The notes beneath the pieces are model-generated. The model ran no database searches. It was not told the DNA's origin and was given only the letters and a program-made list of their open reading frames with translations. A DNA stretch of 64,000 nucleotides. It comes from Propionispira arboris (GTDB lineage: Bacteria > Bacillota > Negativicutes > Selenomonadales > Selenomonadaceae). Where the stretch lies: NCBI RefSeq assembly GCF_900109225.1, contig NZ_FNZK01000007.1:1-64000 (forward strand), written 5' to 3'. Shown one piece after another: positions 7,491 to 43,684 of the stretch (within the stretch, counting starts at the first letter, position 1; every line of letters starts with the position of its first letter). Made by a program: the position numbers and the translations under genes.

Positions 7491-7536
7491 AAAATAAGGT
7501 TATTGCAAATGTGTTTTTGCAGTAACCTTATTTTTT
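7491..7536 (+). terminator. Terminator after manA
   Basis: AAAATAAGGTTATTGCAAA pairs with TTTGCAGTAACCTTATTTT around a short loop, ending in T residues. Confidence 0.88.
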
Positions 7537-7581
7537 CGAAAATGCAATATTTGAGAACGAAACAAGCTATTATATATATAA

Positions 7582-7660
7582 GTTGCATTCAATGTTTTAT
7601 TACGCAGGAAGCAAACGACCCTATATCCCGTTCCTGGCAGCCTACTAGGCTAGATGCAAT
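7582..7660 (+). ncRNA. Candidate structured leader element, copy 1
   Basis: An outer stem GTTGCATT/GATGCAAT (7582-7589 with 7653-7660) encloses two hairpins. The first is CAGGAA/TTCCTG (7605-7610 with 7631-7636) and the second is AGCCT-ACT-AGGCT (7639-7651). The outer stem, the short 3' hairpin and a TTTTAT segment recur on the minus strand at 35108-35153, also in the leader of a gene. It lies between an AT-rich promoter-like stretch and the thioesterase start. No known riboswitch class was recognised. Confidence 0.55.
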
Positions 7661-7690
7661 ATAGTAATGTATTTGAAAGTGAGTGGAATT

Positions 7691-8113
7691 ATGGAAGAAA
7701 CGTTAAAACGAGTAGAGATGTTGTTATTGTCATTTTATCAGGATAATCCATTTGTCCAATATTTAGGTATCAAAGTAGAATCGGTGGAATTTGGCAAAGT
7801 ACAGTTATCAATGCAGATTCATCATGAATGTACAAATGTTTATAAAATCGCCCATGGCGGGGCGTTAATGTCAGTAGCGGATACGGCTATGGGGGCGGCT
7901 TGTTTGAGTGTGAATAAAAAAGTTGTGACCCTCGATTTTAATATAAACTTAATGAAAGCTGTACCGGAAGATCAATTGATCTATGCTGTTGGCCGGATTT
8001 TACATAATGGTGCGCGAACGATTGTGGCTGAATGTGATATTGTTGATGCAGCCAATAAAATTTATGGTAAGGCTCGAGGTACCTTTTTTGTTAATGAGAA
8101 ATTTGCTGAGTAA
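7691..8113 (+). CDS. PaaI/YbgC-type hotdog-fold thioesterase
   Basis: A hotdog-fold protein of about 140 residues in the acyl-CoA thioesterase superfamily. The active-site block is HGGALMSVADTAMGAACLS, where the Asp and surrounding residues match the PaaI-like group. It should hydrolyse an acyl- or aryl-CoA thioester in the cytoplasm; the substrate is unknown. The frame is open from an ATG at 7667. GTGAGTGG just before the second ATG makes 7691 the more likely start, but neither site is strong. Its leader contains the two-copy structured element. Confidence 0.85.
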   Translation: MEETLKRVEMLLLSFYQDNPFVQYLGIKVESVEFGKVQLSMQIHHECTNVYKIAHGGALMSVADTAMGAACLSVNKKVVTLDFNINLMKAVPEDQLIYAVGRILHNGARTIVAECDIVDAANKIYGKARGTFFVNEKFAE

Positions 8114-34730: not shown

Positions 34731-35058
34731 TTACGAAATGAATTTTACATAACAGATATAAGCGAATAGGATACAAGCGGCGCCTATCGTGACTAACCCT
34801 GCTTTATCAAGATATGGACTAAATTTCTCTGGTATATTGACATGCTTTCGCACATAGATAGAAATGAGCGATAATGCAAGCAGTACATACATGAGCAGAC
34901 TCGGTGTATCCAGTTCTGACCAGCCTAAAGCTAAAATAAATAGATTTAAACAGATGATGGCAATAAGCCAAAAATCGCGTCCGGGGCGACCTTTTTTTTG
35001 TTGGAGTTTCAACTGGTTTTGTAATTTTTTGTTGAATGCGTTTCGATAATCTTGCCAT
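34731..35058 (-). CDS. Small membrane protein, frame broken at an A8 run
   Basis: Two overlapping frames look like one gene. The upstream frame starts at the ATG at 35058 (MARLSKRIQQK, basic) after GGATTGGTG. The downstream frame carries three hydrophobic segments (WLIAIICLNLFILALGW, LLMYVLLALSLISIYV, GLVTIGAACILFAYICYV). They meet at eight A residues (T at 34992-34999 on +). With seven A the frame would be continuous, about 109 residues. The downstream frame alone has only a TTG start at 35012. Possible causes are transcriptional slippage, a sequencing indel or decay. Function unknown. Confidence 0.6.
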
Positions 35059-35107
35059 ATGGGAAATCACCAATCCTTCGAAATGATCTATATGTTGCAT
35101 TAAAGAA

Positions 35108-35153
35108 ATTGCATCTAGCCTATTAAGCTGTCATATAAAATATTTAATGCAAC
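35108..35153 (-). ncRNA. Candidate structured leader element, copy 2
   Basis: On the minus strand it reads GTTGCATT (35153-35146), TTTTAT, then the hairpin AGCTT-AAT-AGGCT, then the shared 3' block TAGGCTAGATGCAAT. The outer stem is identical to copy 1. In the inner hairpin one C-G pair becomes U.G, which keeps the pairing. The middle hairpin of copy 1 is absent. GTTGCATTAAA can alternatively pair with TTTAATGCAAC just downstream (plus-strand positions 35094-35104), an 11-base perfect match. An extended -10 promoter (TGGTATAAT on -) precedes it near 35183-35191. Confidence 0.55.
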
Positions 35154-35207
35154 GTATATATCTTAATAATAAGACTATCGTTATTATACCATAAAGCATG
35201 GACATAA

Positions 35208-43475: not shown

Positions 43476-43565
<90 letters not shown>

Positions 43566-43595: not shown

Positions 43596-43684
43596 GGAGT
43601 GGTACTCAAGTGGCTGAAGAGGACGGTTTGCTAAATCGTTAGACGCGCAAGCGTGCGAGAGTTCGAACCTCTCCCACTCCGCCA
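43596..43684 (+). tRNA. tRNA-Ser (anticodon GCT)
   Basis: Acceptor GGAGTGG pairs with CCACTCC, the anticodon loop is TTGCTAA, a long variable arm follows (ACGCGCAAGCGT), the T-loop is AGTTCGAACCT, and CCA is encoded. It reads AGC/AGU codons and is probably co-transcribed with the previous tRNA. Confidence 0.97.

Follow-up and report, generated by a model that had tools for sequence, protein, structure and literature searches.

Two similar leader sequences of Propionispira arboris are very probably decayed copies of a MITE that inserts at TA

In a stretch of 64,000 nucleotides of the Propionispira arboris genome (hereafter, the window), two similar sequences are found far apart, each in front of a gene of unrelated kind, and the question is whether they belong to a regulatory RNA or to a repeat. 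The original prediction, made from the letters of the window, left both possibilities side by side. The sequences GTTGCATT, TTTTAT and TAGGCTAGATGCAAT were indeed common to the two copies at the predicted places. The 14-mer TAGGCTAGATGCAA occurred at 5 exact places in the 4.26-Mb P. arboris genome (40 contigs), where about 0.03 was expected by simple base counting; there were 11 places with one mismatch, and with up to two mismatches 39 places were found (16 for the reversed pattern). The likeness of the two window copies is real, and far beyond chance. From the neighbourhoods of the TAGGCTAGATGCAA matches, a longer common unit was recognised, and the window copies are its shortened versions (Table 1).

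The intact unit has a consensus of about 147-151 bp (most full-length copies, 144-154 bp), and is made up of a central hairpin of 18 bp with a conserved loop of about 28 nt, a 3' tail, and, at the ends, terminal inverted repeats of about 16-18 bp. The consensus (about 150 bp) is composed of CTATATAAGTTGCATTAAATATTTTATATGGCAATCGTCAGGAATGGGGTATAGGG, the loop CTCCGTGGCGTTACGTAGGAAGCAAACGATG, and CCCTATACCCCATTCCTGGCAGCCTAATAGGCTAGATGCAATTTCTTTAATGCATTATATATAG; the ends take the form TATAAGTTGCATTAAA or TATAGAACGCATTAAA, the latter belonging to a second subfamily, which has the tail CAGACTGATAGACTGGATGTAA. In the alignment of 38 full copies, the core of the terminal inverted repeat (GCATTAAA/TTTAATGC) was paired in 94% of cells, and in many copies the terminal repeats reach outward to TATAAGTT or TATAGAAC. 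A covariance model was made from the 38 full copies, neither window copy being among them; the search with this model, the kind of check that had been proposed, recovered both window copies (E values in Table 1). Since the ends of copy 2 are inverted repeats, a weak score was obtained for it on the other strand too. The boundaries and the structures first described had to be revised. Copy 2 extends to 35091 and takes in the true 3' terminal repeat TTTAATGCAAC, and it is this repeat that pairs better with the 5' GTTGCATTAAA than the outer stem as it had been drawn. As for the supposedly shared fold, neither copy was clearly more stable than shuffles (z, -0.4 to -1.9), and the short 3' hairpin thought to be conserved is not a feature of the family, its middle pair failing in 29 of the 37 full copies. 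The extra hairpin seen in copy 1 is really a remnant of the central hairpin of the family, which was deleted from copy 2. From copy 1, the 5' arm of this hairpin and part of the 3' end of the copy are missing; copy 1 is common to P. arboris and P. raffinosivorans with the identical internal deletion in both, and has 11 more 3' bp in P. raffinosivorans than in the window.

Table 1. Features of the window related to the two copies (CM, covariance model)
Feature	Position	Strand	Remarks
MITE copy 1	7577..7661	+	85 bp of ~147 remain, with sequence lost internally and at the 3' end; target TA at 7575-7576 and 7662-7663
Copy 1 CM match	7574-7681	+	E 1.3e-4 in the 64-kb window
Copy 1 5' terminal inverted repeat TATAAGTTGCATTCAA	7577..7592	+	Agrees with the 5' end of the family
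Copy 1 central hairpin and loop remnant GCAGGAAGCAAACGACCCTATATCCCGTTCCTGGCA	7604..7640	+	5' arm deleted; from comparison with full-length copies
4HBT-type thioesterase gene, downstream of copy 1	7691..8113	+	Pfam PF03061, E 2.3e-13
MITE copy 2	35091..35158	-	68 bp, lacking the central hairpin by deletion; target TA at 35159-35160 and 35089-35090
Copy 2 CM match	35086-35161	-	E 7.3e-9 in the 64-kb window
Copy 2 5' terminal inverted repeat TATACGTTGCATTAAA	35143..35158	-	From the family alignment; pairs with the 3' repeat
Copy 2 3' terminal inverted repeat TTTAATGCAACATA	35091..35105	-	Beyond the originally predicted range
Small predicted membrane protein gene, downstream of copy 2	34731..35058	-	From the translations of both species

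The sites of insertion were compared between P. arboris and P. raffinosivorans with about 1.0 Mb of the former and 0.9 Mb of the latter. Copy 2 is absent at the orthologous place of P. raffinosivorans, where the flanks continue at 98-99% identity; the empty site reads GATC-TA-TCTTAG in P. raffinosivorans, and the filled site reads GATC-TA-(68 bp)-TA-TCTTA in the window. On this alignment, copy 2 arrived after the split of the two species, recently enough for the site of the sister to remain empty. Over the ~1.9 Mb, 19 insertions were shared (viewed from the P. arboris side), and 15 sites, from either genome, were called empty in the other. Duplication of TA fits copy 2, P. arboris C22:27471, C22:31366, C28:107119, C28:133018, C27:149463 and C27:164959, and P. 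raffinosivorans C2:86142, with the empty site reading TG, not an exact TA, at two of these sites; others among the 15 are irregular or concern partial copies (P. raffinosivorans C1:262148, for example, looks irregular). The unit is shorter than about 200 bp and has terminal inverted repeats, a target-site duplication with empty sites, and many dispersed, mostly intergenic copies, as is required of a MITE. The window elements are almost certainly decayed copies of such a MITE, inserting at TA with duplication of the TA.

The short forms can be followed in orthologous copies. The P. arboris copy at C27:64384 is near full length, and its ortholog in P. raffinosivorans (C5:123158) is short and joined at TGGCA, as is copy 2. 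In the full unit, TGGCA flanks the hairpin on both sides (TATATGGCA...CTGGCAG), and copy 2 has the corresponding junction (TATATGACAGC). After insertion, copies would shed internal sequence via deletion between short direct repeats (TGGCA...TGGCA), giving short forms like copy 2; this route is supported by the comparison of the orthologous copies, and a direct-repeat deletion across the hairpin would explain copy 2. Alternatively, an already short form may have inserted at the copy 2 site.

The repeat is abundant in Propionispira. At least 40 strongly scoring places were found in the P. arboris genome with consensus BLAST (40 scored of 167 first-look candidates), and a profile search gave 51 copies in 1.0 Mb, which extrapolates to about 200 copies in total; many copies are also present in the sister genome, P. 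raffinosivorans DSM 20765. When the covariance model was applied to 250 Negativicutes genomes, matches were obtained in 11 genomes, belonging to 4 of 92 genera: Propionispira, two genera in a second family (f6), and one in a third (f5). No match was found in the other sampled genera of Propionispira's own family in this set, and the copies outside Propionispira, in the two other Negativicutes families, are few and decayed. This patchy distribution fits a mobile element. Plasmid and phage collections gave no match to the repeat, nor did one exact pattern of it searched in viral contigs. The alternative of a small dispersed element in the original prediction holds, on account of the TA duplication, the empty sites, and the ~200 copies per genome; that of a cis-acting RNA is not supported. 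A search of the open literature gave no account of the repeat. The family is apparently undescribed; its kind, the TA-type bacterial MITE, is well known.

With about 150 bp, the unit is too short for transposase coding and thus must be moved in trans; judging from the TA duplication, a TA-specific transposase, most likely IS630/Tc1-mariner-like, would perform this. DDE_3 (PF13358) was found in none of three genomes (P. arboris, P. raffinosivorans and G029), and the NCBIfam IS630 model detected in both Propionispira species only N-terminal DNA-binding halves, below the cut-off and without matching ends. DDE_Tnp_1 elements were also examined as the partner and rejected; their ends differ from those of the MITE. 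Paired solo ends 250-4000 bp apart, searched for in ~1.9 Mb (about a quarter of each draft Propionispira genome), revealed no convincing autonomous element. The partner transposase may be extinct, or may lie in parts of the genomes outside the assembled or scanned sequence. Note that stand-alone ORFs of 157-176 aa that have only the IS630 N-terminal DNA-binding half are present in P. arboris (L225 and L232) and P. raffinosivorans (L226 and L233), and that L225 adjoins a diverged MITE copy (C23:73656); these ORFs are possibly domesticated or fossil transposase halves. A decayed DDE_Tnp_1 pseudogene (P. arboris C28:64459-64800; P. raffinosivorans C16:64364-64705) was also observed, lying about 500 bp away from a MITE copy with equivalent spacing in both species; the inverted repeats of the pseudogene (TGAGCCTTGAAAA) are unlike the MITE ends.

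The repeat belongs with bacterial MITEs such as RUP, Correia, and ERIC, to judge by its size, its ends, the duplication of TA, and the number of copies. RUP of pneumococcus, an IS630-Spn1-linked MITE, is a non-autonomous element of 107 bp with 108 intergenic copies, terminal inverted repeats, and a TA target (PMC2229807). The Propionispira repeat is likewise non-autonomous and intergenic, with terminal inverted repeats and TA at the target; however, an IS630 partner of RUP is known from the pneumococcal genome, whereas for the Propionispira repeat none was found and a conserved central hairpin is present, the likeness being drawn from these features. Correia/NEMIS of Neisseria has forms of ~107 and ~155 bp that differ by an internal segment, a terminal inverted repeat, and TA termini, and was sized by filled and empty sites (PMC2229807). 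Long and short forms, terminal inverted repeats, and TA termini are thus shared with the Propionispira repeat, but the difference in Correia is a discrete 50-bp internal segment, while several different internal deletions, some at TGGCA direct repeats, occur in Propionispira. ERIC/IRU of enterobacteria is a 127-bp intergenic repeat with a terminal inverted repeat and TA termini, and its transcripts fold (PMC2229807); it resembles the Propionispira repeat in intergenic location, terminal inverted repeat, and TA, as likened by description in another host, and an effect on mRNA stability is reported for ERIC. The bcr1-bcr3 repeats of the Bacillus cereus group are MITE-like intergenic repeats, often in UTRs or intergenic parts of operons (PMC3446304); they too are likened by description in another host, and transcription by RNA-seq was seen for bcr1-bcr3. 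REP/BIME-like palindromic repeats, spread by a tyrosine (Y1) transposase, share the high copy number, the intergenic location, and the ability to form hairpins. REPs are, however, described as palindromes of 20-40 bp with a GTAG or CGTC tag at one end (PMC3733652), and the transposases linked to them are RAYTs (PMC2817692). The Propionispira unit measures ~150 bp, its terminal inverted repeats are long, and it duplicates TA, so an assignment to this group is hardly credible.

A cis-acting regulatory RNA, that is, a riboswitch- or attenuator-like leader for the thioesterase gene and for the gene below the HAD hydrolase, would account for the position of both window copies, in sense orientation between an upstream gene and a start codon, and for the covariation of the family hairpin. 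The predicted location in the leader of a same-orientation gene is correct for the two window copies but is not a property of the family. Among 84 copies of the two species (orthologous copies counted twice; genes called by a simple longest-ORF rule), 50 were in tandem intergenic regions (18 sense and 32 antisense), 18 between divergent genes, 13 between convergent genes, and 3 inside called ORFs. The split among the intergenic classes tracks intergenic length, also in P. arboris alone (P = 0.77); that is, the copies are scattered with no link to genes, the outcome that had been named in advance as counting against the leader RNA. In the P. arboris tandem regions, 10 sense and 19 antisense copies were found (P = 0.14), giving no sense-strand preference. 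Nor did the copies keep to the sense strand in front of any one class of genes, and neither window copy has the covarying structure whole: copy 2 has lost it by deletion, and copy 1 retains one arm. Copy 2 is missing in the sister species, in which the gene and the leader are otherwise ~98% identical. The copies also diverge faster than their flanks: orthologous copies differ by 9.3%, and the 35 bp next to them by 3.9%, figures inflated by a few very divergent pairs; without the three worst pairs the values are 4.7% and 2.5%. In the f6 genomes, most copies retained at orthologous sites are conserved no better than the flanking DNA, and no constraint in place was found on orthologous copies, either in the Propionispira pairs or in f6. 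With Rfam, no match was obtained in the window at the gathering score, and no family for the element was found at eight loci with near-full-length copies down to E 5. A leader RNA is thus very unlikely. Under the MITE reading, the leader position would be a by-product of insertion into intergenic DNA, and any influence on downstream genes is probably incidental.

The central hairpin (18 bp) is the only family-wide structure, and raises the question of why conservation in a MITE should be higher in the middle than at the ends. In the 38-copy alignment, changes on both sides were found in 8 of 15 pairs of the outer central hairpin (named pairs counted), and the whole structure had 25 double-changed cells against 7.8 in shuffled columns. 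A possible pseudoknot (ATCGT/ACGAT) was paired in 96% of cells, its covariation consisting of one double change in one copy (L048). Between families, the loop and arms were the best-kept parts (79-82%; loop, 79% identity), followed by the ends (64%) and the tail (53%), as compared in matches picked by a model that includes the hairpin. In the lineages that spread, the hairpin is kept as a hairpin, be it as RNA, as DNA, or via arm-correction in replication; its covariation and the loop conservation go beyond the needs of a plain MITE, and may point to some structural function while the element is mobile. A refinement of the MITE reading, not exclusive of it, is that the central hairpin-loop with the possible pseudoknot is a structured RNA needed by the element, for example as a transcript to which the transposase or a host factor binds, or one that stabilises or cuts the mRNAs in which the element has inserted, as proposed for ERIC. 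The paired changes, the conservation of loop and arms, and the pseudoknot are in its favour; the pseudoknot covariation, however, comes from one copy, and arm-correction of quasi-palindromes in replication also yields paired changes. In addition, G-U states should outnumber A-C states if pairs are selected in the RNA of one strand. The 38-copy alignment had 28 G-U and 16 A-C cells, but counted as distinct states the numbers were 13 and 10 (P = 0.68), and a wider set of poorer alignment had 28 and 36; the asymmetry was therefore dropped as a mark of RNA-level selection, which is not supported when G-U does not significantly exceed A-C. We consider this refinement unlikely. Somewhat more doubtful still is the idea that the hairpin-loop, with its possible pseudoknot, is a structured RNA module that is older and better kept than the ends, common to the TA-type MITEs of at least three Negativicutes families, and needed for movement or for processing of host mRNA. 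As an observation on a single locus, one MITE copy lies at the identical orthologous place in four f6 species (L187, L191, L192 and L194); its hairpin arms have some matching changes (GGGATGG/CCATCCC and GGAATGG/CCATTCC), and one copy is broken.

For the window, the MITE reading replaces a false lead, the supposed regulatory RNA, with an insertion that can be dated after the split of the two Propionispira species. The family supplies Propionispira with insertion differences between species, and the repeat should be masked in RNA-motif discovery on Negativicutes. As for the neighbouring genes, the start of the thioesterase gene was placed at 7691, which is likely from an upstream ribosome-binding-like sequence. 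The membrane-protein gene is frameshifted in an A8 tract in P. arboris and has A7 with an intact frame in P. raffinosivorans; the frameshift may reflect phase variation or a recent pseudogene, or may come from an error in the assembly. At 7491-7535 (+), 3' of a phosphomannose isomerase-like gene and shortly before copy 1, a strong inverted repeat is followed by a T run (AATAAGGTTATTGC...GCAGTAACCTTATTTTTT); it looks like the terminator of that gene, and was not among the terminators listed by a simple terminator scan. The window also contains two adjacent tRNA-Ser genes, at 43477-43565 and 43596-43684 (+), with the anticodons TGA and GCT.
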